This document shows positions 2,680 through 28,178 of a stretch of DNA of 64,000 nt, one piece after another. The stretch covers positions 310,001-374,000 of the forward strand of contig NZ_UZAC03000001.1 in the NCBI RefSeq assembly GCF_900538055.1, given 5' to 3'. A program made the translations under genes and the position numbers. The first letter of the stretch is position 1. The number at the start of each line of letters is the position of its first letter. A model generated the notes under the pieces. That model did not search any database. It saw nothing but the letters and a program-made list of their open reading frames with translations, and was not told the DNA's origin. Source of the stretch: Pasteuria penetrans (lineage in GTDB: Bacteria; Bacillota; Bacilli; Thermoactinomycetales; Thermoactinomycetaceae).

Positions 2680-3699
2680 TCAGGAAATCTGCTGGTAAAA
2701 ACGTCTACCCGGGGACTTTCTTATGTTTATGTTATTCTTTTTCTGAATCATACTATCAAAGCATATAGTCATCATATATGAAACAATTAGCATGAATGCC
2801 TGATTATATGACGTTGGTCTATGTTTATCTAGCCCCATTGTATGCTTTAGTATTGTGAAACAGTGCTCTCCTGATGAACGTTTTTTCATTAACTCTTTAC
2901 ATCCCTTTGTTTGTAGTTGATAAAAATTCTCCTTTCGCAGTGGACTGGTGATGGAGTTCGGTGTTTTGGCTCTTCTCTTATTATATCCAGCCAGTAATTT
3001 TAAACCGTGTTGTTTACATAATTCGAACAGATCATGTACGTCGTAAGCACTGTCTGCTACTAGGCCCCTACATCCTAAGGTTGATATCTCGGGGATCAGT
3101 AAACAGGACGCTTCAACCTCGCCTAAATTTGCGGGGCCCATGGCCAATACCAACGGTATCCTGCCGTCCATGGTTGCCACCACGGTTACTCCTATTCCCC
3201 TGTGAAAGCCCTTATAGTTCCGAAGGGTGGCCGTATCTTTCGCCCGTCTGCTTGTCGACACAATCACTTGATCCAAGAAAAGATATTTTTCCTTTATTTC
3301 CGACAATATAACCTTCTGATCTTCTTCACTAAGAAATTCTAATAGGTTAAAAATTATTGTTTCTCCGTTTTTTGCAATACATTTTTTAATGTTTTTATCA
3401 TATAATGATCGACTAAACCCTTTCGTAATCCCTATAATATCTCTTATCATTTTATTTCCATTTATAACATTTATTAATTCTCTTTCACTTTGTAAATTCC
3501 AAATAGCCATAACGAAACAGCACAATATCGACACACGGTGATCGATCACACGGGTACGGCTTGACTTCTCCTCATTCGGGAGACCGTAGACCGTGGTAGC
3601 TAATGTCTGCAGCATAAGCAGTCGGCTTTTTTCTTCTACCCCTATGCCCTCATGATCTTCCCAAGGCTGTTCTGAAAGATTGGGTTTCTTTTTCCTCAC
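2680..3699 (-). CDS. DDE transposase (IS4/IS5-like)
   Basis: 339 residues with a GTG start at 3699 preceded by GAGAAG. The C-terminal two thirds is an RNase H-like DDE transposase domain. Candidate catalytic residues are D in FLDQVIVS (about residue 143), D in LVADSAYD (about 216) and E in RSSGEHCFTILKH (about 280). The N-terminus carries the helical region typical of IS4/IS5 relatives. The gene is full length with no internal stop. A group II intron sits about 55 bp upstream of its start, in the leader of this element, so the IS may be the intron's original target. The exact IS family is uncertain. Confidence 0.75.
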   Translation of the reverse strand: MRKKKPNLSEQPWEDHEGIGVEEKSRLLMLQTLATTVYGLPNEEKSSRTRVIDHRVSILCCFVMAIWNLQSERELINVINGNKMIRDIIGITKGFSRSLYDKNIKKCIAKNGETIIFNLLEFLSEEDQKVILSEIKEKYLFLDQVIVSTSRRAKDTATLRNYKGFHRGIGVTVVATMDGRIPLVLAMGPANLGEVEASCLLIPEISTLGCRGLVADSAYDVHDLFELCKQHGLKLLAGYNKRRAKTPNSITSPLRKENFYQLQTKGCKELMKKRSSGEHCFTILKHTMGLDKHRPTSYNQAFMLIVSYMMTICFDSMIQKKNNINIRKSPGRRFYQQIS

Positions 3700-3790
3700 C
3701 TGTTCTCTTCTCTTTTTTCTTTCTAATTTCCCATGAAGATCTGGAAAATTACTTGTCGAGTAGGGCTGGCATTTCAGCCAACCCTCTCAC

Positions 3791-3825
3791 AGAACCGTAC
3801 TTAATAGTCTCCCATTATACGGCTC
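3791..3825 (-). ncRNA. Group II intron domain V (outer intron)
   Basis: GAGCCGTATAATGGG...TTAAGTACGGTTCT forms a domain V-type hairpin of the standard size (about 34 nt). It lies between the IEP stop and a domain VI hairpin built from GGGTTGGC/GCCAGCCC. Equivalent domain V sequences occur at 5579-5613 (inner copy) and 50004-50038 (solo copy), with changes in the stems that mostly keep pairing. It is the catalytic core of the ribozyme. Confidence 0.8.
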
Positions 3826-3836
3826 TTATTGCCCCA

Positions 3837-5100
3837 TTAGGATCTTGTCCTATTCAGATGCCAGTGTACAAACAGCCTTCGGTACTTTCCCCGTATATAT
3901 CGAACCCATCTCAGGGCCTTTTTCCAATTGTTCAGCTTTTTGTATTTCTTCGTGGCCCATCGAGCCAGAACTTGGTCGATGTGGTCACGCAAGAAATTCC
4001 TAATGGCCGAAGGGTAGAAGGCGCCATAATAGGTAAGCCATCCCATGAGTTTGGCATGGAGAAGGTTTGCTATCTCCTCCAGATCTATGCCCACTCTACT
4101 TGGGATGCCCAGCTTCCCAACTTGCCTAGCTATCTTGCTTTTAGATTTTTGGCTTATGGCTGGTACGAAACCCACAGATCTCACCCCTGTACGACGACTT
4201 CTGACCTCACGGGCCTTGAATGCGTACCCTAGAAAATCAAAGGCAACAACATCATGATTCCCGTTCCGCCTATCATCTTCACAGTAGAAGATTTTGGTCT
4301 TCTCCGGATGCAGTTCCAGCCCGCACTCTGCCAATCTTTGCCGAATTTCTGAAAGAAGATGTTCAGCTTGCGCTTTGTTCCGGCAGTGGACGATAATATC
4401 ATCTACATACCTCGCAAAACGTATATCGGGGTGCTCCGTTTCTATCCATTGATCAAAAGCGTAGTGCAGGAACAGATTGGCCAGGAGGGGACTTTACGAC
4501 TCCACCTTGCGGCGTGCCCTTAACCCTTTCCTCGCTCGTCCCATCAGGTAATAATACCGGTGCCTTAAGCCACCTCTTGCAATAGAGTAACGTTACTTTA
4601 TCCGCCCCAACGTGCTCAAGGGCCCTCAAAATGAGGTGATGCGGAATGTTGTCAAAGAAGCCCACTATGTCGAGGTCGATTCCCCAGTCGTACTCCCAAC
4701 AGCGCTCACGGGTTACACGTAACGCCTGATGCGCTGATCTCTTGGGGCGACATCCATAGGAATCTCCATGAAAGTGGGTCTCTAGGAGAGGCTCAAGCCG
4801 ATTCTTTATTACCGTCTGGGCTACCCGGTCTGCTACCGTGGGTATGCCAAGTGGCCTTTTTCCACCGCATGACTTGGGAATCCACACACGCCTAACCTTG
4901 GAGGGGAAGTAGGATCCTGCGCAGAGTTGATTCCATATCACATACAAATTACTTCTCAGATCGTATGCGAATGCGGTAATCGTCTGCTGATCCACTCCAG
5001 GACCTCCATCGTTAGACATTACCTGATGCCACGCCTTCAGTACCTCTTTCTGCTGTATATTGTATCTGTCTGGATTTTGGTCCGATGTTGCTTGCTTCAT
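3837..5100 (-). pseudogene. ltrA: Group II intron-encoded reverse transcriptase/maturase, frameshifted
   Basis: Start ATG at 5100 is preceded by GAAGAGGAG at good spacing. The first frame has the RT0-RT4 region (GGPGVDQQT, KRPLGIPTVADRVAQ, YGCRPKRSAHQAL, DLDIVGFFDNIPH, GTPQGGVV). The frame then shifts at 4493-4495, where an AAA on the minus strand replaces an expected AA. Removing one base restores VVSPLLANLFLHYAF and leads into the YVDD active site (about 4390-4415), the thumb and the X maturase domain (YRRLFVHW near the end). The protein would be about 420 residues. No strong HNH endonuclease motif is visible. The shift is either a real inactivation or a sequencing error in a short homopolymer. 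Confidence 0.85.
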
Positions 5101-5542
5101 ACCAGTCTCCTCTTCCGGTAATTTCCATCCAAGTTGCTGTACTTCTCTGAAACATGCAGGCAATTCAACCCCTTCGCTCCACTTCCATTACAGAAGCTTC
5201 TACACTACTATGGGTTGATCCGACTTCGTGCACGGAACCTCGGTTAGCCCTCGGTCTTTACATCTGGCGACAGCCAGACGCCGTACGACGATCTCTCAAG
5301 TTCCGATCAAGAGCCTAAATCGGGTTCATCCCGCCTATACACCGCATGCCACCGGGGCAGAAGATAGGTCGTCCCCCACGGTTCATCCCGACGTCCGATA
5401 CCCACCTCGGTTTTGACATGGACTACATTTTTCGATGCGTCTTCGAACGGTTCGCTTTCGCTGATCTCCCCGATTCCCACCTGACAGGGTCATGCCCTGC
5501 CTTTTCCTAGATCGCTCACAACCAAGGCATTTAACCCCAGCG

Positions 5543-6504: not shown

Positions 6505-8867
6505 CTGGTGCTACCGCGAAAAAAGGTATCAAACTTATTAAAATATTTTTGTAGATTAAATGATGTGTTCAGGAAATGTTTATATTGTTAATGTATATAA
6601 AAACAGTCTGCTTGGGTATTTCCGGCGTAAGTTCTTTGGGGTGGAAAGGTACCCCTTTCTAGGGGGATTGCACCTGAAAATTTCGTGCGATCGGTTATTT
6701 TTTGTTGAACCACCGAAATCACCGTGGAATCATAGGATCCGGTTCCTATCTCGCCCCTTTTGCGCACACCAAAGAAACCGACATAAAGTCGAATTTTATT
6801 TTTTATTTAAATAGTATTATATATTAAACCCTATGTAGTTATGGGTGATCTTATCCTTATCTTCCTGATCTTCTTTTGAAGATAACGAACGGCCTGGGAT
6901 AAATTATAAGCAGATCCTTTTGCCATCATGGCCCGTGCCACCCTCGTCTTACCACGCACCTTCATTTTGGCCGCCTGAAAACGGTTCTTCATAGAAGAAC
7001 AAACCCCCTCCACAGCCGCACGACGATTACCCTTCTCTTTGTACCCCGGTTGCTCCATTTTGTCTCGTTGTTCCGCCGTTGAATAGGACTGATCTGTGGT
7101 GCGCAGGACCCTTTCCCCCCTCTTCAGAGGTTTGGCTGCACATTGCTCGGCAAATTTACATCCCCCGCAAGTCCCCTCATGGAAGCGGGCCACTATCTTA
7201 CCCTTGCCCTTCTCTCCGGGTTGGTACGTGGATGAGTCGGGGGTCTTGCCACCAGGACACCGATGGATCTTTCCATCCTTTCCTCTCTTGAACCCGCTTA
7301 CCCTTTTTTTACTGGGATTTTCCTTTCTTCCCAACATATCGGTTGGGTGTATATCGATAGTACGTTCTTTAGCCGCCTCCCTTACCTCATGGCAGTTGTA
7401 CCCTCCGTCGAAATACAAGGTCTTGTTGTCCTCTGGTGCATGGTTGGATATATAGTCAACTCCAAAATCCTTATCGGAGTGAAGTGCCCCTTGGGTATTT
7501 ACATGGGTGAGTATACTCAATCCCTTCACCTCATCACGAGCCTCGACAAGGTTACAAACATACCCTCTACACAATTGCTTACCCTTGATACGACATTGGG
7601 CGTCTGGATCAAAGGGGCTTTGCAGACTGCCTGATGGCGAGGTGGAACGCACCATGAGTTTCTTTTGCCCTTCCTGTTCCACTCCCTCTGTCTGCTCTCC
7701 TATCACCCTTTGCAACAGTATATGGACTGGGGCGGATTGAAACTCCTTGTACTGGTTCCCAAAGTGTTTGAGGGCTAGGCAAATCTCTAGCAGTGTTGCC
7801 CTCCGTTTCATCTTGTCCGTTGGGTGATCTGCTGGTAGAAGGAGGAGGGACCTATAAGAATAGGCCTGGGCTTCGTTCACATCGGCCATCCCGCAATCTG
7901 GTTGCAAGAAGATCTCCCATTCGGAAGGAAGAGGTAGGGCAAGTTTGGCCATCGTACGAACCGAAATCCTAATCACCAAGAAAATCAACATATTGCGGCT
8001 CAGTTTCCTGATACAGCTGTCGATAAGGGTTGAATCCATCCGATAAATACTGGGATCCATGCCCACGATCCCCATCAAAAATTGGGTGAAGTCGGAGTAG
8101 AACTGTTCCTTCACATTATAGCCTTCGGTTTCCTCATAGACATTGAGGCGATTTCGACTCTCATATAGTGTTCTTTCACCCATAAGTGGTCTACCTTCTT
8201 TACCACCCAATGCCTCAAAGAGAGGGCCTTCGCGTGGAATTTGAATGATCAGCATACGGTCGCTACACCGTAAAAACTCCTTGATTATGTCGAAAATCAA
8301 TGGTGTGAGTATATGTATGCATGGCCTCCCAATGGTATTGTGGTAACCACTGTATCTCTTCCTATATAAGGATGCATATTCGGTGAAGAACAGGCCAAGG
8401 AGGATGAAAACAAATTCTATATCAGAAGGTTGTTTCGTACCCACCATGGATAATAGACGATTCTGCAAGTAAGTTTCCCTTTGTTCTATTTCCTCTGTTT
8501 CGTAGTCATTGGGTATTGTGTTACAACGTTGGGAAGCCATCTGTCCTCTAGTCTCCTTATATTTTTTTATTTTTATAAGGAAGATTATACAACAAGGATA
8601 GATGGCTTTTCCATATCTCTTACCATGTTTTTTAACTAACAAGATTTAATTACCATGGTTTGATACATAATAATCTAAATAAACTGTTTATTATGAAATA
8701 TCGTGCTGATCCATTTCCTGGGGATGCATTGAATGAAAGAGCAAGTACTATCAAATAACCTTACTATATTTATTAAATTTTATTATAGGTCGGGGAGGGA
8801 ACCAAATTTTGGAAACCAATGCTCTGGGCGGTACTTGTCGGATCGTTCCTTTCTGCGGTAGCACCAG
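6505..8867 (-). mobile_element. Complete IS1182-like insertion sequence with terminal inverted repeats
   Basis: The left end at 6505-6517 reads CTGGTGCTACCGC and the right end at 8855-8867 is its exact complement. The repeats extend imperfectly inward to about 20 bp (...GAAAAAAGG versus ...AGAAAGG). The 2363-bp element holds one transposase gene and a 327-bp leader. No clear target duplication is visible. A 5' fragment of a near-identical copy lies at 61631-62100, and more distant truncated relatives at 1805-2399 and 17185-17877. Confidence 0.85.
6831..8540 (-). CDS. IS1182-family transposase
   Basis: 569 residues from ATG at 8540 (MASQRCN...). A longer in-frame start at 8642 exists, but the partial copy at 61826 is out of frame upstream of this ATG, so MASQ is the likely start. 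The N-terminal DUF772-like region has YSGYHNTIGRPC. Probable catalytic residues are D in YRMDSTLIDS, D in LYFDGGYN and E in AAVEGVCSSMKNRF. A Cys-rich patch (GTCGGCKFAEQC) follows the second Asp, as is usual in this family. The gene is full length and probably active or recently active. The 5' leader has a weak CCTTAT/ATAAGG hairpin just before the start. Confidence 0.85.
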   Translation of the reverse strand: MASQRCNTIPNDYETEEIEQRETYLQNRLLSMVGTKQPSDIEFVFILLGLFFTEYASLYRKRYSGYHNTIGRPCIHILTPLIFDIIKEFLRCSDRMLIIQIPREGPLFEALGGKEGRPLMGERTLYESRNRLNVYEETEGYNVKEQFYSDFTQFLMGIVGMDPSIYRMDSTLIDSCIRKLSRNMLIFLVIRISVRTMAKLALPLPSEWEIFLQPDCGMADVNEAQAYSYRSLLLLPADHPTDKMKRRATLLEICLALKHFGNQYKEFQSAPVHILLQRVIGEQTEGVEQEGQKKLMVRSTSPSGSLQSPFDPDAQCRIKGKQLCRGYVCNLVEARDEVKGLSILTHVNTQGALHSDKDFGVDYISNHAPEDNKTLYFDGGYNCHEVREAAKERTIDIHPTDMLGRKENPSKKRVSGFKRGKDGKIHRCPGGKTPDSSTYQPGEKGKGKIVARFHEGTCGGCKFAEQCAAKPLKRGERVLRTTDQSYSTAEQRDKMEQPGYKEKGNRRAAVEGVCSSMKNRFQAAKMKVRGKTRVARAMMAKGSAYNLSQAVRYLQKKIRKIRIRSPITT

Positions 8868-9333
8868 ATATAAAAAATCCTAGAAAGGACCGGAAAGACC
8901 AACACATTCCCATAGATGTAGGACTACGGAAAGTTTTTTTGACCCTACACGCTCCTTAATAAAGAACCCTCCCTTTAACACACACATAACCATACTATAA
9001 ACGATACTCGGGGTATTCTAATATATTTATCGTAATTTTGTCAAGCAGATTAATTTTGTCAAGCAGATTGTGTCTGATCGCGTGCGTGATTTCCCCCTGG
9101 GGGTGTGCCCCGTAAGCTGTAATAATAAAGGGAGATAATGATAGGAGTATACATTTTTGTTTAAATAAAATTTATATAATATTTCAATATATAATCCTTT
9201 ACGCATATCGTTTTTTTATATACGTTAGAGACGGATGGAATCCAGTCCCGCCCGACATTATTTTTTCACCTGTTTTATAATAATAATTATTTATAAATGA
9301 TAAAAATGTACTAGTTATTATTCAAGAGATAAA
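8868..9333. other. Gene-free spacer with an 18-bp tandem repeat
   Basis: No gene. Contains the exact tandem repeat TAATTTTGTCAAGCAGAT at 9033-9050 and 9051-9068, then AT-rich sequence leading to the promoter of the Cys/His-rich gene. Confidence 0.5.
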
Positions 9334-9342
9334 CATATCATA
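9334..9342 (+). promoter_or_regulatory. Mother-cell sigma (SigE/SigK)-type -10 element
   Basis: CATATCATA fits the CATANNNTA pattern known for SigK (and largely SigE) -10 elements. It lies 107 bp before the ATG of the Cys/His-rich gene. The paralogue has CATATCCTA at a nearly equal distance (103 bp), in an otherwise alignable leader (taaaaCATATC.TA...TGGCAG...CTGC). A clear AC at the SigK -35 spacing is not present, so the assignment is inferred. Confidence 0.5.
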
Positions 9343-9448
9343 ATGAATATGGCAGTCCCTACTAACTGCTAAAAAAACCTTCTCAGCTCAAGAAGAAAAC
9401 TTATCTTCCTATTATTTCTAAAAAATTATAGAACATGGGGGATACACT

Positions 9449-9664
9449 ATGTTAGTAGGAAGAAAATACGTCTATAAGCCCAGGGTAAAAAGATGTCGTC
9501 ATAGTTACAAAAAAGTCTATTATGGCCATGGACATGGCCACCATAATGAATGCTGTCGAGAATTCATCAAGTGTAAACCCAAAGTGGTTCAACAATGCTA
9601 CAAAATCAAACACTGTATAAAACCTATATGTCGCCCTTGTGAAAAATGCCATCATCACTACTAA
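9449..9664 (+). CDS. Cys/His-rich small protein, putative spore coat or exosporium component
   Basis: 71 residues, ATG preceded by GGGGGA. It is very basic and rich in Tyr, His and Cys, with a GHGHGHH run and a Cys-rich tail (CCREFIKCKPKVVQQCYKIK, then HCIKPICRPCEKCHHHY). There is no signal peptide or membrane segment. The paralogue at 10161-10460 shares CC(R/Q)EFI(K/Q)C(K/R)P(K/R)(V/I)VQ(Q/E)C.KI..C(I/V)(K/E)PIC.PC and a similar N-terminus. Small Cys- and His-rich proteins made under SigE/SigK are typical of Bacillus coat and exosporium crust, so a cross-linked or metal-binding spore layer protein is my inference. I do not recognise the family. Confidence 0.7.
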   Translation: MLVGRKYVYKPRVKRCRHSYKKVYYGHGHGHHNECCREFIKCKPKVVQQCYKIKHCIKPICRPCEKCHHHY

Positions 9665-9875
9665 AACACGTACCCCCTTTACAACTACCGAAGGATCCTC
9701 TGCTCAGTAGGAAGAGATTGGGAATCATAACAAATTTACAATTCCCCAGTGATCTCTTCGATAAATAAAAACTAAGATCTGGATCGCTTCACTAGACAAT
9801 CCCGGTTCAACCCTCTCTCTATTTCCCATGCAAAGAAACTATCACTGTGGGTACCCACCCAATGGAAACTGAGCT

Positions 9876-9909
9876 CCCCGCCCACCTATCACTTCCCCTG
9901 TGGGCGGGG
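9876..9909 (+). terminator. Strong GC-rich hairpin after the Cys/His-rich gene
   Basis: CCCCGCCCAC at 9876-9885 pairs perfectly with GTGGGCGGGG at 9900-9909 (10 bp, 14-nt loop). A second palindrome, GTGGGTACCCAC, lies just before it near 9848. There is no T-run, so it could stabilise the mRNA 3' end rather than terminate. Confidence 0.5.
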
Positions 9910-10049
9910 GCCATAACAGGGATAACCCTATGGGAACCCAACAGGGATAGCTCCTACCTGGCAACATTACATAGAAATACCCTCTACCATAGGTATATAA
10001 TATAATTATTACAATTTAGTTAAACATACTGTTTATTATAAAGTAAAAA

Positions 10050-10058
10050 CATATCCTA
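10050..10058 (+). promoter_or_regulatory. Mother-cell sigma-type -10 element of the second Cys-rich gene
   Basis: CATATCCTA, in the same leader context as 9334-9342. It is followed by a perfect TGGCAG...CTGCCA inverted repeat (about 10066-10087) that is partly kept in the paralogous leader. Confidence 0.5.
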
Positions 10059-10160
10059 AAACATGGCAGCTCCTATAAACTGCCATATCATTCCACTTCC
10101 TCCTTCGCAAGAAGATAGACCCTTCATTAAAAAATATAGAATAAAATATATCGGGGGGCC

Positions 10161-10460
10161 ATGGTATTCATGAGAAAAAAATGCGGTTTGAAATCTACGG
10201 TAAAAAGAAGGTACAGCAGCCACAAAAGGACACTTGCTGTGAGTCAACCAACTTATAATCATGTTGAGAACAGTTACCCGAACCAACACTCCCACCCTGA
10301 TCATGATCATCATCACAAATGCTGTGAATCCAACAAAAAATGTTGCCAGGAATTCATCCAATGCAGACCGCGGATAGTTCAGGAATGTCGCAAAATCACG
10401 TGCTGTGTTGAACCCATATGTTGTCCATGCCCGTGCCCACAACAGGACTGCTGTTTCTAG
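10161..10460 (+). CDS. Cys/His-rich small protein, paralogue of the 9449 gene
   Basis: 99 residues. The middle has a His/Asp run (HSHPDHDHHH) and the C-terminal half is Cys-rich (KCCESNKKCCQEFIQC, then CRKITCCVEPICCPCPCPQQDCCF). It aligns with the 71-residue neighbour from the first residue (MVFMRKK...KRRYSSHKR versus MLVGRK...KRCRHSYKK), which favours the first ATG, although the GGGGGG ribosome site is better spaced for the second ATG at 10170. The His cluster and paired cysteines suggest metal binding or disulfide cross-linking. Function as a spore-surface protein is inferred from composition and promoter only. Confidence 0.7.
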   Translation: MVFMRKKCGLKSTVKRRYSSHKRTLAVSQPTYNHVENSYPNQHSHPDHDHHHKCCESNKKCCQEFIQCRPRIVQECRKITCCVEPICCPCPCPQQDCCF

Positions 10461-10522
10461 CCCCTTTCCCCTTTGCATCAAGGAGAGACCTCTTTTACCT
10501 GATTTTCTGTCCATGTGGGGGA

Positions 10523-10547
10523 CGTATGGGTCTAGGAAACCCATACG
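10523..10547 (+). terminator. 9-bp hairpin downstream of the second Cys-rich gene
   Basis: CGTATGGGT pairs with ACCCATACG across a 7-nt loop. It is nested inside a looser CCATGTGGGGG/CCCCCCATGG pairing that ends about 10575. No T-run. Confidence 0.4.
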
Positions 10548-10642
10548 AAACGAAAATATCCCCCCATGGAAAAAGACAGAAAAACGGATGGTCTCCACCA
10601 ACAATCTGATACATTCCCCCCTTTGAAATCAAAACCAACGCC

Positions 10643-11578
10643 CTAGGGTACTCCCTCCAACATAGCTATCGATTGCTCCATCCCAACAGATAAACCCATT
10701 CCCACCTCCGTCCACTCACCCGTTCGGGGATGATGAAAACCCAACTCCCCAGCATGTAAAGCCTGTCCCGGTAAATCAAGATGGTATCGAGACTTACGTG
10801 GACCATACACGGGATCCCCCAGAATGGGGAAACCCATATACTTACAATGAACACGGATCTGATGGGTTCTCCCTGTCTCCAATCGACACCGCACCAAAGT
10901 AGCATAGGCAAAGCGCTTCTCTACTACATAGTGTGTGATGGAACGTTTCCCCTTGTTGAGGACACGAAAACGCTTCCTATCCAGGGGATCACGGGCAATA
11001 GGAGCATCTACCCTACCTGTCTCCCGTGGGATCCGTCCCTGTACCAGGGCCCAATACATACGTTTCACCCTACGATCGCGCAATTGCTGGGTCATGAGAC
11101 GATGCGCCGTATCATGTTTGGCCACCACCAACAAACCCGAGGTATCCTTGTCGAGGCGATGGACAATACCTGGACGACACTCCCCCCCTACACCACGTAA
11201 ACTATCGCCACAATGAGCCAGTAAGGCGTTTACCAGGGTACCCTCATAATGTCCAGGTGCAGGATGAACCACCATTCCCGCCGGCTTATTGACCACCAAA
11301 ACATCGTCATCCTCATAGCGAACGTCCAGAGGTACGTCCTCAGGTTGCAAACGACTAGGAACAGCAGGGGGAATAGAAACAACAATGCGCATACCAGGGC
11401 GCACCCGCTGGCTCGCCCTGGCCTGCAACCCGTCCACAAGTACTCTACCCGCATCAATCCAAGACTGTACCTGCGTACGTGACCAGCTAGGCTCAAAATG
11501 AGTCAATGCCCTATCCAAACGACCTTGCCCTTCCTCCGCTGCACCTACCATCCATTCCCAACACCCGGATTTGATCAC
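10643..11578 (-). CDS. rluD: RluA/RluD-family 23S rRNA pseudouridine synthase
   Basis: 311 residues from a GTG at 11578. I chose this start because AGAGGAAGG lies 8 bases upstream and the GTG overlaps the lspA stop as GTGA, a classic coupled junction. It starts with an S4-like RNA-binding domain (RLDRALTHFEPSWSRTQVQSWIDAGRVLVDG), then the catalytic domain with the family signature HRLDKDTSGLLVVAK, whose Asp is the catalytic nucleophile. TGRTHQIRVH and ILGDPVYG follow. It would convert uridines of large-subunit rRNA to pseudouridine. In Bacillus the equivalent gene (ylyB) also follows lspA; pyrR, which normally comes next, is not here. Confidence 0.93.
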   Translation of the reverse strand: MIKSGCWEWMVGAAEEGQGRLDRALTHFEPSWSRTQVQSWIDAGRVLVDGLQARASQRVRPGMRIVVSIPPAVPSRLQPEDVPLDVRYEDDDVLVVNKPAGMVVHPAPGHYEGTLVNALLAHCGDSLRGVGGECRPGIVHRLDKDTSGLLVVAKHDTAHRLMTQQLRDRRVKRMYWALVQGRIPRETGRVDAPIARDPLDRKRFRVLNKGKRSITHYVVEKRFAYATLVRCRLETGRTHQIRVHCKYMGFPILGDPVYGPRKSRYHLDLPGQALHAGELGFHHPRTGEWTEVGMGLSVGMEQSIAMLEGVP

Positions 11579-19575: not shown

Positions 19576-19866
19576 TCCCTTACCTTAGACCACAATCGGT
19601 TCCGTTCCCGTTCAGCTCCCAGTTTCTGATCCACCACGGTCGACTATTTCGACATTTGCCCTATGAGTGACACGAAGTAAAATCAATTCCCATTTTTCGT
19701 ATCATAATTCCCACATTCGTAATCCGTAACTCGTCCCTCCGATCCTATGACAACAACCTCCTAGCTTTCCTTCTCCATCCTAATTCTCCAATCGGGGCTA
19801 TAGGACCCTGGCAGTGCGCGGGTAAATCAAAACCACTAGTTGGAGCAAATCCATTTTGGGAATACT

Positions 19867-20030
19867 GTCGAGTAGGACTGGCATCCCAGCCAACCCTCTC
19901 ACAGAACCACACGCTGATCTCCACGACCCCCACCCGACAGGCCTCCCCGCCTTTTCCTTTGACCACTCCTTACACCAGCAGCGCAAGGTGGTTTAGAATC
20001 TTTGCCCCTACCAGCCCAATTCTGAAAAGA
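19867..20030 (-). mobile_element. Shrunken group II intron relic (unit 1)
   Basis: On the minus strand the text follows the order of the group II introns with large internal deletions: GGCTGGTAGG, GCTGCTGGTGTAAGG, AAAGGCGGGGAGGCCTGTC, GTGGAGATCAGCG, then directly TCTGTGAGAGGGTTGGCTG and ...CTACTCGAC. Most of domains I-V is gone, so it cannot splice. Confidence 0.65.
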
Positions 20031-20220
20031 AACAAGACCCCAATCGGGGTCCTCCCTCATCGTCCATACCACTTTGCAAAGCGTACGATCCGACTCCGTT
20101 CACAACCGCAGCTTCGGTATAGTCTTAGCCCTTTCACCTGGCTAAGTCTAGGTGTCCATGCAACAGCCTCTCGTGATTCCAAACGACAATTTTTTAGCTC
20201 GGGTGAGTCAGGAGAGGGGA

Positions 20221-21228
20221 TCAGAAGAGAATCAATTTGATATTAACAATTTCACAGATAAGACCACAAAGTGAAAACAACGTTAAAACACCGAGAATAA
20301 CCCAAAGTAAGCAATTTTTGGTACCACTACGGGACTGTAACACTCTCTTCCCCTGCGTATTATTATAATAATAAAATATTTCTAGATAATTGCAGGGAGG
20401 TGAGAAAATTAAATGCCTGAAAAAACCAGAAGTAGAACGAATGCTGAGGAAGGGCCTAAAGAAAGCACGACGCTGACCTAAGAGAAGATGAGCCCAGGAA
20501 GGTAAGACATGGTAAAGCGAAAAACAAGAAAAAAAACTACCGGCGCGAAATATCATATCCGAATGAAGGGAAGAGCTTGAACCAGCGCCAAAATGGGAAA
20601 CGAAATGAAGCAAATGTAGGGGTAACAAATACTCTAATAGACACATAATGATCCGTCTATTGACAAAACCCACATGAATGCCTTGCACCCTAAACCAATG
20701 TTCTTCTTGCCAAATTCTCCCTCGTAAAGCCGCCATCCATCCTACTGTGCCTAATGTCAACAACCATACGGAGGGAAAGGTCCATAGGAATACACATGTC
20801 ATAATCAAAAACCATACCCCTCCTCCCCATGAAACCAGGTACCAAGCCCCCCTCCTCCATAAACTATGTTGTACTATAGCACGCCGATAATTTTTCCGGT
20901 TTGCGGACCACTGAATCATCTGTCTAGCAGCTACCTGGGCCCGGGAAAGGAATTCATTATTTTTTTCTTTTTTTATTTCCTTTTTTAACAAAAAAATAAC
21001 CATAATAGAAAAACATATATAACCAATGGAACCTATCATCAATGGCATTCCATACTTTGGCAACGCCTGTACCCCTTCTACCATGTAGAGTGACACAGAG
21101 AAGAAGAGTAAAAAATGAAAGAGAAAGCTAATCCAACCCCAACGCACCACAACGAATCGTATAGGGTAACAAAGATCTGTATCCTTGGGCGGCGACCCAA
21201 TCATTGAAGTATACAGCCATTTCTCCAT
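20221..21228 (-). CDS. Seven-TM membrane protein of unknown function (copy 1)
   Basis: 335 residues, ATG at 21228 preceded by GGGGGGAAGGAA. There are seven predicted helices: WISFLFHFLLFFSVSLYMV, PLMIGSIGYICFSIMVIFLL, WYLVSWGGGVWFLIMTCVF, VWLLTLGTVGWMAAL, IIMCLLEYLLPLHLLHFV, a sixth ending PSWAHLLLGQRR, and LLWVILGVLTLFSLCGLIC. A charged linker (KKEIKKEKNNE) follows helix 2. Copy 2 at 21908 is about 94% identical. The protein at 48335 shares the layout and the P(S/N)W.HL.LGQR(R/K) motif. No known family comes to mind and no enzymatic signature is seen. The presence of three or more copies suggests an adaptive, lineage-specific role. Confidence 0.75.
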   Translation of the reverse strand: MEKWLYTSMIGSPPKDTDLCYPIRFVVVRWGWISFLFHFLLFFSVSLYMVEGVQALPKYGMPLMIGSIGYICFSIMVIFLLKKEIKKEKNNEFLSRAQVAARQMIQWSANRKNYRRAIVQHSLWRRGAWYLVSWGGGVWFLIMTCVFLWTFPSVWLLTLGTVGWMAALRGRIWQEEHWFRVQGIHVGFVNRRIIMCLLEYLLPLHLLHFVSHFGAGSSSSLHSDMIFRAGSFFSCFSLYHVLPSWAHLLLGQRRAFFRPFLSIRSTSGFFRHLIFSPPCNYLEIFYYYNNTQGKRVLQSRSGTKNCLLWVILGVLTLFSLCGLICEIVNIKLILF

Positions 21229-21553
21229 TTCCTTCCCCCCGAAACCATAGAAATACCTGCTCCTAAATTCCTTAGACCAAAATTGGTTTCATTCCCATTC
21301 AATTCCCAGTTTCTGATCCACCACGGTCGACTATTTCGACATTTGCCCTATGAGTGACACGAAGTAAAATCAATTCCCATTTTTCGTATCATAATTCCCA
21401 CATTCGTAATCCGTAACTCGTCCCTCCGATCCTATAACAACAACCTCCTAGCTTTCCTTCTCCATCCTAATTCTCCAATCGGGGCTATAGGACCCTGGCA
21501 GTGCGCAGGTAAATCAAAACCACTAGTTGGAGCAAATCCATTTTGGGAATACT

Positions 21554-21717
21554 GTCGAGTAGGACTGGCATCCCAGCCAACCCTCTCACAGAACCACACG
21601 CTGATCTCCACGACCCCCACCCGACAGGCCTCCCCGCCTTTTCCTTTGACCACTCCTTACACCAGCAGCGCAAGGTGGTTTAGAATCTTTGCCCCTACCA
21701 GCCCAATTCTGAAAAGA
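21554..21717 (-). mobile_element. Shrunken group II intron relic (unit 2)
   Basis: Essentially identical to the relic at 19867-20030. It was duplicated as part of the unit, so the intron decayed before the tandem duplication happened. Confidence 0.65.
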
Positions 21718-21907
21718 AACAAGACCCCAATCGGGGTCCTCCCTCATCGTCCATACCACTTTGCAAAGCGTACGATCCGACTCCGTTCACAACCGCAGCT
21801 TCGGTATAGTCTTAGCCCTTTCACCTGGCTAAGTCTAGGTGTCCATGCAACAGCCTCTCGTGATTCCAAACGACAATTTTTTAGCTCGGGTGAGTCAGGA
21901 GAGGGGA

Positions 21908-22915
21908 TCAGAAGAGAATCAATTTGATATTAACAATTTCACAGATAAGACCACAAAGTGAAAACAACGTTAAAACACCGAGAATAACCCAAAGTAAGCA
22001 ATTTTTGGTACCACTACGGGACTGTAACACTCTCTTCCTCTGTGTATTATTATAATAATCAAATATTTCTAGATAATTGCAGGGAGGTGAGAAAATTAAA
22101 TGCCTGAAAAAACCAGAAGTAGAACGAATGCTAAGGAAGGGCCTAAAGAAAGCACGGCGCTGGCCTAAGAGGAGATGAGCCCAGGAAGGTAAAACAGGGT
22201 AAAGCGAAAAACAAGAAAAAGAACTACCGGCGCGAAATATCATATCCGAATGAAGAGAAGGGTTTGAACCAGCGCCAAAATGAGAAACGAAATGAAGCAA
22301 ATGTAGGAATAACAAATACCCTAATAGACACATAATGATCCGTCTATTGACAAAACCCACATGAATGCCTTGCACCCTCAACCAGTGTTCTTCTTGCCAA
22401 ATTCTCCCTCGTAAAGCCGCCATCCATCCTACTGTGCCTAGTGTCACCAACCATACGGAAGGAAAGGTCCATAGGGATACACATGTCATAACCAAAAACC
22501 ATACCCCTCCTCCCCATGAAACCAAGTACCAAGCCCCCCTTCTCCATAAACTATGTTGTACTATAGCACGCCGATAATTTTTACGGTTTGTGGACCACTG
22601 AATCATCTGTCTAGCAGCTACCTGGGCCCGGGAAAGGAATTCATTATTTTTTTCTTTTTTTATTTCCTTTTTTAACAAAAAAATAACCATAATAGAAAAA
22701 CATATATAACCAATGGAACCTATCATCAATGGCATTACATACCTTGGCAACGCCTGTACCCCTTCTACCATGTAGAGTGACACAGGGAAGGAGAGTAAAA
22801 AATGAAAGAGAAAGCTAATCCAACCCCAACGCGCCACAACGAATCGTATAGGGTAACAAAGATCTGTATCCTTGGGTGGCGGCCCAATCATTGAAGTATA
22901 CGGCCATTTCTCCAT
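21908..22915 (-). CDS. Seven-TM membrane protein of unknown function (copy 2)
   Basis: 335 residues from ATG at 22915 with GGGGGGAAGGG upstream. The frame runs back to 22990, but only the MEKW start is shared with copy 1. It has the same seven helices. It differs from copy 1 at about 20 positions, many of them clear changes of character (L5P, S12P, G60V, EYLLPLH/GYLLFLH, FYYYNNTQGK/FDYYNNTQRK). The C-terminal 30 residues and the downstream 480 bp are identical between copies, which points to recent duplication or gene conversion there. Confidence 0.75.
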   Translation of the reverse strand: MEKWPYTSMIGPPPKDTDLCYPIRFVVARWGWISFLFHFLLSFPVSLYMVEGVQALPRYVMPLMIGSIGYICFSIMVIFLLKKEIKKEKNNEFLSRAQVAARQMIQWSTNRKNYRRAIVQHSLWRRGAWYLVSWGGGVWFLVMTCVSLWTFPSVWLVTLGTVGWMAALRGRIWQEEHWLRVQGIHVGFVNRRIIMCLLGYLLFLHLLHFVSHFGAGSNPSLHSDMIFRAGSSFSCFSLYPVLPSWAHLLLGQRRAFFRPFLSIRSTSGFFRHLIFSPPCNYLEIFDYYNNTQRKRVLQSRSGTKNCLLWVILGVLTLFSLCGLICEIVNIKLILF

Positions 22916-23069
22916 TCCCTTCCCCCCCGAAACTATAGAAATACCTGCTCCTAAATTCCTTAGACCAAAATTGGTTTCATTCCCATTCAATTCCCAGTTT
23001 CTATACCACTGCGGTCAACTATTTCGACATTTGCTCTTAAGTAAATCACAACACTAGGAAGGAAATCCA

Positions 23070-27929: not shown

Positions 27930-28178
27930 CTACTGTCTATTGTTTCCTCTCTCCCTCAGGGTTACCCCCATCATGGAACGTGCTAGGGGTCGCAAACGAT
28001 GGGAAAAGTACCGGTAACGATCCCCCCCTTCTCCCTCCTCCACCTGTATCCTAACCATATCATTTTCACAATGATGACAAAGATAATGAGTTTGGATACG
28101 CAAGCCAGACCAACAGATTTGATTGCAAATGATGCAACAAGGTAGATCTCCAAGATGGGCTTCCCCACAATCATGCAA
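27930..28178 (-). CDS. csfB: Sigma-G inhibitor Gin (CsfB)
   Basis: 82 residues, ATG at 28178 with AAAGGAGG upstream. It is a zinc-binding Gin domain: CCIICNQICWSGLRI, then YLCHHCENDMV, giving two CxxC pairs, followed by YRYFSHRLRPLARSM, the conserved tail helix. Gin binds sigma-G (and sigma-E in the mother cell) to delay its activity until the right sporulation stage. Position immediately downstream of the rRNA operon and upstream of yaaO matches B. subtilis. The C-terminal extension after MMGVTL is longer than in Bacillus Gin. Confidence 0.85.
   Translation of the reverse strand: MHDCGEAHLGDLPCCIICNQICWSGLRIQTHYLCHHCENDMVRIQVEEGEGGDRYRYFSHRLRPLARSMMGVTLRERGNNRQ

Follow-up and report, generated by a model that had tools for sequence, protein, structure and literature searches.

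Two adjacent genes of the nematode parasite Pasteuria penetrans encode small, Cys- and His-rich proteins that, as judged from sequence comparison, form a real and conserved pair whose relatives were not found. With moderate confidence, we interpret the two products as structural proteins, small in size and probably disordered, of the P. penetrans endospore envelope (coat or exosporium), a reading that draws on sequence features of the pair and on analogy with other spore formers. The pair was identified within a window of 64,000 nucleotides (bases 310001–374000 of contig 1 of the 2.52 Mb, four-contig genome, which is 97.07% complete). The GC content of the window is 46.8%; that of P. penetrans has been given as 46% in the available portion of PMC13233619.

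Identification of a Paralogous Cys/His-Rich Gene Pair

Gene 1 (9449–9664, + strand) codes for a 71-aa protein with 9 Cys and 9 His, and gene 2 (10161 or 10170 to 10460, + strand) for a protein of 99 or 96 aa, the 99-aa form of which contains 15 Cys and 8 His. A Shine-Dalgarno-like GGGGG (9437–9441, + strand) is positioned 7 nt before ATG 9449 of gene 1. The corresponding GGGGGG of gene 2 (10153–10158, + strand) is only 2 nt from ATG 10161, and the predicted start is therefore more likely ATG 10170, which also places the MRKK.. of protein 2 beside the ..GRKY.. of protein 1. Both ORFs are intergenic, with a transposase-like ORF on one side and an RluD-like gene, encoded on the other strand, on the other. 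Upstream of the pair are ORFs (2680–5163 and 6831–8642, − strand) read as transposase-like and as split reverse-transcriptase-like, the latter possibly from a group II intron.

The motif CC.EFI.C.P..VQ.C.KI..C..PIC.PC, which comprises seven Cys, is matched exactly in both proteins (9551–9640 and 10341–10430), where 18 of 30 residues are identical. An eighth Cys aligns just behind the motif in both proteins, across a one-residue gap, and a His cluster precedes the motif in each. The local alignment score of the two proteins (146) exceeded all scores obtained from 1000 plain shuffles (maximum of 79) and from 1000 shuffles in which Cys and His were held fixed (maximum of 103). An earlier note on this DNA had described two paralogs with a common Cys-spaced C-terminal motif and His clusters, and both parts of that description were borne out. 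Comparison of the nucleotide sequences that encode the motif identified 21, 24, and 14 identities among 30 first, second, and third codon positions, respectively, with conservation lowest at the third position. Identity is higher in the sense frame (18/30) than in the in-register antisense frame (12/30); another antisense frame (16/29 identical) is interrupted by stops in both copies. We accordingly regard the antisense frames that are open on the two genes as by-products. Collectively, these comparisons indicate that the + strand is the coding strand and that genes 1 and 2 are tandem paralogs, i.e., homologous coding genes.

Protein 1 is strongly basic (18 K/R and 3 D/E), and the N-termini of both proteins, when inspected by eye, are short, basic, and devoid of a hydrophobic signal segment. 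To place the composition of the pair in context, small ORFs in 591,507 bases sampled from the same genome (some sampled stretches overlap) were ranked by Cys and His content. Nine Shine-Dalgarno-led ORFs of 30–250 aa had 6 or more Cys and a Cys plus His content of 17% or more, and the pair ranked first and third among them; a richer ORF, with 46 Cys plus His in 159 aa, was identified outside that sample. The suggestion that the composition fits cross-linked or metal-loaded layers is consistent with this ranking. AlphaFold modeling of protein 2 from a two-row alignment yielded a mean pLDDT of 41.3 and no usable fold. The two proteins are probably disordered, with the caveat that a low pLDDT from so thin an alignment is no proof of disorder, and the model as predicted separates neither a role in spore layers nor intracellular metal binding.

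Search for Relatives of the Pair

Within its own genome, the pair has no further family members. Neither protein matched a Pfam family or a PHROG at E values up to 10, and the single match to NCBIfam at that threshold (11.4 bits) was taken as chance. Thus, the remark in the earlier note that no named family is known to carry the Cys motif agrees with all three collections, and a known intracellular metal-binding family, which that note had named as evidence against its reading, did not surface: no metallothionein match was obtained in Pfam or NCBIfam. A PDB search returned one match, which was rejected (E = 4.7), and searches of phages and plasmids with protein 2 as the query returned no match at E values up to 1. 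Among viral contigs, 80 pattern matches were obtained and none were confirmed.

We then searched other genomes for relatives, as the earlier note had proposed, and no credible relative was detected in sets of 60, 397, and 397 genomes, which share genomes with one another. Single-sequence searches of 60 other genomes returned matches at E values up to 1 in 14 genomes (best E of 0.015), and the best seven contained internal stops. A two-row profile returned four matches among 397 other genomes of the class (E = 0.005–0.009, all with internal stops) and three among 397 other genomes of the phylum (E = 0.004–0.009), all of which were taken as chance; in these two profile searches, up to 12 first-look candidates per genome were scored. 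One of the matches from the phylum set (genome G777) had an open frame over 31 columns (E = 0.0094), while the others contained internal stops. Literature searches on Pasteuria spore coats, cysteine, and Cys/His-rich coats revealed nothing on the pair. An orphan pair is unsurprising in itself, since 21.8% of P. penetrans genes fall in species-specific orthogroups according to the portion of PMC13233619 available. The pair is best read as a lineage-specific orphan family in sequence and as one of a known kind in function.

Conserved Blocks and Stem-Loops Upstream of Both Genes

The 5′ regions of the two genes align with a score of 44, compared to a mean of 14.7 and a maximum of 26 among 500 dinucleotide shuffles. 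From position 9276 into the leader, the conserved order of blocks is TATAAT-ATAATTA, ACT..TTATTAT, AAACATATC.TAA, and ATGGCAG..CCTA..AACTGC. The AT-rich block TATAAT(A)ATAATTA (9276–9293, + strand), the counterpart of which is a TATAAT at 9996–10001, is a possible SigA −10 element, and the block ACT..TTATTAT (9310–9322, + strand; counterpart from 10028) occupies a −35-like or activator-site position. The −10-like box CATATCATAA of gene 1 (9334–9343, + strand), a SigK/SigE-type match on the −10 only, has its counterpart in the box CATATCCTAA of gene 2 (10050–10059, + strand). The distance from these CATATC(A/C)TAA boxes to the start codon is 115 nt in gene 1 (ATG 9449) and, in gene 2, 111 nt (ATG 10161) or 120 nt (ATG 10170).

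In both leaders, a stem-loop of seven pairs comes directly after the CATATCNTAA box. The 5′ UTR stem-loop of gene 1 (9350–9371, + strand; −7.9 kcal/mol) starts 6 nt after the box, and that of gene 2 (10063–10086, + strand; −9.0 kcal/mol) starts 3 nt after it. None of 200 shuffles was as good as either stem-loop; when whole leaders were considered, 2 (gene 1) and 32 (gene 2) of 200 shuffles were. Genome-wide, a box with GGCAG 4–16 nt later was identified nowhere but in these two leaders, and the backward pattern was identified once. The conserved box and small 5′ UTR hairpin that the earlier note had described as common to both genes were thus recovered, and the region (8700–10700) had no Rfam match at E values up to 1. 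One stem pair differs between the copies (G-C to G-U); because this change keeps the RNA stem and spoils the DNA palindrome, it provides a slight point in favor of the inverted repeat acting as an RNA stem rather than as a DNA palindrome.

Candidate Sigma Factors

The −10 consensus sequences of SigK and SigE are CATANNNTA and CATACANT, respectively. The SigK −10 element is matched in both copies (CATATCATA and CATATCCTA), and the −10-like box fits the SigK consensus better than the SigE consensus, with the letters of both taken as commonly given. The sequence CATACACT stands before the CotE-like ORF. Between the TTATTAT block and the box, gene 1 has a gap of 12 nt and gene 2 one of 10 nt, and no −35 element of SigK or SigE type was found to fit both copies at one spacing. 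In Bacillus, the optimal gap between −35 and −10 elements is 15 ± 1 for SigK and 12 ± 1 for SigE (PMC517825, available text).

The combination of the TTATTAT block and CATANNNTA was detected 4 times in 598,609 bases, compared to 3 times for the reversed control, and the occurrence of the CATA box alone in the window (4 versus 2.8 expected) was not unusual. Nor was CATANNNTA enriched before genes: among 184 genes, 8 had it within the preceding 150 nt, as against 4–7 for five control patterns, and none had it at −135 to −100, the interval that contains the box of the pair. The sequence CATATNNTAA was identified 24 times in 464 kb versus 12 times for its reverse, and before 2/184 versus 0/184 genes. 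CATATNNTAA was also found before an ORF read as SufC, before an ORF of 1270 aa at a collagen locus, and before a 563-aa ORF read as secreted. Stem-loops were not typical after CATANNNTA (18 of 293 sites compared to 273 of 2000 random places), and a general rule that a stem-loop comes after CATATNNTAA boxes found no support (9 of 31 sites versus 22 of 76 control sites).

Further upstream than the CATA box, both copies keep a SigA-like TATAAT. It is 18 nt from a weak −35 with 10/12 matches in each copy, and these are the two best of 7 promoter-like sites. The seven SigA-like sites of the region represent no excess over shuffled sequences (5.7 ± 2.8), and the −35 hexamers differ between the copies (CCGACA and TAGAAA). 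Mother-cell control of the pair is plausible. The designation “mother-cell-type promoter” in the earlier note was not substantiated, given that the match is to a −10-like box only, that the gap to the −35-like block differs (12 versus 10 nt), that CATA boxes are not enriched, that a SufC-like ORF has the box, and that the TATAAT is kept.

A tandem block with a spacing of ~260 bp was observed at another locus of the genome (L178, ~1140–1560, + strand), between ORFs read as SpoIIGA and FtsZ. In each copy of this block, a strong stem-loop (−20.0 and −16.3 kcal/mol) comes after CATATAATAA.

Sporulation and Collagen-Like Genes in the Host Genome

The host is a spore former that encodes SigK, SpoIVA, and CotE. 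SigK scored 351.6 bits, above its cut-off of 298.65. A second SigK-like factor, which at 252.2 bits falls short of that cut-off, adjoins an ORF read as SpoIIGA, and further sigma-factor matches were identified. The CotZ family (PF10612) had no match in the genome at E values up to 0.001, while the Bacillus subtilis control was positive.

The collagen model (PF01391) matched at least 123 places (places rather than genes) in the genome, with 150 of 214 candidates scored, and the nearest match among those listed is ~57 kb from the pair. This is in contrast to the available portion of PMC13233619, which reports no detected expansion of collagen-like genes in P. penetrans and cautions that its genome is of lower quality. 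The 12-residue ends of 17 collagen-like proteins from P. penetrans Res148 are printed in the accessible part of PMC6238073, and both ends of 6 of these 17 (Ppcl1, 8, 9, 16, 28, and 29) were recovered here. That search covered stretches around collagen matches, and thus part of the genome, and the first residue was left out when N-terminal ends were matched; for the remaining 11, the search of those stretches was negative. On this evidence, we identify the host as P. penetrans or a near relative. At one collagen locus (L122, contig 2: 76000–84500; C2:82070–83130), collagen profile matches were obtained on both strands, and Gly-X-Y-like repeats can be read both ways.

A Second Cys/His-Rich Set in the Same Genome

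Three further Cys/His-rich ORFs form a second set. The first two are on the + strand of one locus (L130, contig 1: 1682000–1692000), at 3747–4013 (MSCSSCGHRHHGHHHH..) and 4213–4413 (MSCSPCGHRHHGHRHH..), within ~3.5 kb of two collagen-like ORFs that scored 24.3 and 26.6 bits (under the cut-off of 27.2); a further collagen match at this locus (28.9 bits) is ~4 kb away on the other side. The third, on the reverse strand of another locus (L173, contig 1: 1736500–1741500), encodes 159 aa, of which 35 are Cys and 11 are His, and contains KPKPVKECCCC-type repeats; its sequence recommends it strongly as a candidate cross-linked protein of the spore layers. The plan of the set is an N-terminal His cluster followed by CCRP..C..RV..CC. 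Each ORF has a small leader stem (−7.1, −7.4, and −4.1 kcal/mol), which is weak evidence. No Pfam family was detected for the two copies tested. When copy 1 was searched against 100 other genomes, 25 had a match at E values up to 0.1, the best being 2.1e-4 over 39 aa in genome G042; screening for Cys-rich ORFs at five of these matching loci revealed none at that of G042.

The second set is similar to the pair in its His cluster, CCR, spaced Cys, and small leader stem, but differs in its leader and promoter sequence. Plain shuffles reached the alignment scores between the pair and the first two copies in 0–3 of 1000 cases, and those with the third copy in 93 and 215 of 1000. Homology of the pair with the second set was not demonstrable: shuffles with fixed Cys and His reached the score in 56 to 299 of 1000 cases, BLASTP returned no match, and profile comparison gave a probability of 45%. 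We therefore treat the likeness of the pair and the second set as a resemblance in layout and do not accept them as homologous. Their occurrence in one genome suggests that the lineage relies on several Cys/His proteins of its own making.

Comparison With Known Systems and Interpretation

Cys-rich spore-layer proteins can be unrelated in sequence, and unrelated examples (CsxA, ExsY, and CotY) recur as disulfide-linked layers in diverse spore formers, as described in the available part of PMC7333573; by this analogy, the pair is probably located in the spore envelope. Like CsxA and CotY-ExsY, its members are Cys-rich, and their host forms spores and has collagen-like surface proteins (PMC7333573, same part). 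Unlike them, they are small (71 and 96–99 aa) and rich in His, lie away from any listed collagen match, and gave no sequence match; the CotZ/CotY/ExsY profile (PF10612) matched neither protein in Pfam at E values up to 10. The CotD-like coat proteins of Bacillus are likewise small, His- and Cys-rich, and without a signal peptide, but the Cys motif of the pair differs from that of CotD and no Pfam match was obtained at E values up to 10. Metallothioneins and zinc-knuckle proteins share a high Cys content and CxxC-like pairs with the two proteins, which in contrast have no family match (Pfam and NCBIfam), a strongly basic character, and long His clusters.

We propose that the pair arose by tandem duplication and that both proteins would be synthesized, with no signal peptide, in the mother cell. 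If the CATA box is the −10 element, transcription would begin close to the base of the stem, which lies 6 nt (gene 1) and 3 nt (gene 2) past the box, such that the 5′ end of the transcript would be the stem-loop, which might prolong the life of the message through the long sporulation phase. The proteins would then be built into the outer spore layers, where the conserved cysteines could form disulfide cross-links, and the His clusters, together with the Cys pairs, may bind metal or add charge. This envelope role is consistent with the eight aligned Cys and the His cluster, a host with SigK, SpoIVA, and CotE, the abundance of collagen matches, and the presence of a second Cys/His set. Against it are the lack of a −35 at fixed spacing, the lack of CATA enrichment, the kept SigA-like TATAAT, and the lack of a match to a coat family. 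In addition, the nearest listed collagen match (~57 kb) is beyond the range of the 20 kb co-location reported in the available part of PMC7333573.

The main rival explanation, which we regard as possible but unlikely, is that the two genes encode intracellular metal-binding proteins (metallothionein-like or for Zn/Cu storage) that are expressed in vegetative cells or under metal stress from the SigA-like TATAAT, with the leader repeat serving as a repressor operator. The eight aligned Cys, the His clusters, and a CxPC pair would suit such a function, but the strongly basic protein 1 (18 K/R, 3 D/E) would not, and no family was matched in Pfam or, apart from the chance match of 11.4 bits, NCBIfam (E up to 10). 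The TATAAT has the same 18-nt spacing and 10/12 matches in both copies, yet the −35 hexamers differ and the 7 promoter-like sites are near the number in shuffles (5.7 ± 2.8). The arms of the inverted repeat are conserved, but their one difference keeps a G-U pair in RNA and breaks the palindrome in DNA. Small Cys-rich proteins are also a common form of effector, and P. penetrans parasitizes nematodes; secretion or a role at the host interface is nonetheless very improbable, as the short, basic N-termini read from the sequence have no hydrophobic signal segment. Least credible is that these are functionless open frames in an intergenic region rich in insertion sequences. Transposase-like and reverse-transcriptase-like fragments on one side of the pair and the lack of relatives in the databases and genomes searched would be compatible with such an origin, but the codon-position identities (21/24/14 of 30), an alignment score (146) above that of any shuffle (maximum of 103), and the conservation of the Shine-Dalgarno sequence, box, and leader argue against it.

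The spore surface of P. penetrans helps to choose the nematodes to which it attaches and hence matters for biological control. The Pasteuria spore envelope beyond collagen-like fibers is little described in the literature searched, and the words “cysteine” and “spore coat” are absent from the main text of two papers on Pasteuria collagen-like proteins. If the members of the pair are spore-layer cross-linkers, they would be candidates for the layer that could hold the collagen-like fibers, and they would provide a ready test of whether each lineage of spore formers invents its own Cys-rich envelope proteins. A more speculative and improbable extension is that Pasteuria, without a CotY/CotZ/ExsY lattice, builds its collagen-carrying envelope from the pair and the three-member set and hardens it by disulfide and metal cross-links, with a chemistry nearer to that of insect cuticle or mussel thread than to that of the Bacillus coat.

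Other Features of the Window

Two near-duplicate blocks (19745–21228 and 21432–22990) that are ~1.7 kb apart contain similar ORFs of 73, 93, and 335/360 aa and are probably a tandem duplication. An 82-aa ORF with paired Cys (27930–28178, − strand), which we take to resemble the SigG inhibitor Gin/CsfB, adjoins ORFs read as lysine decarboxylase and thymidylate kinase.
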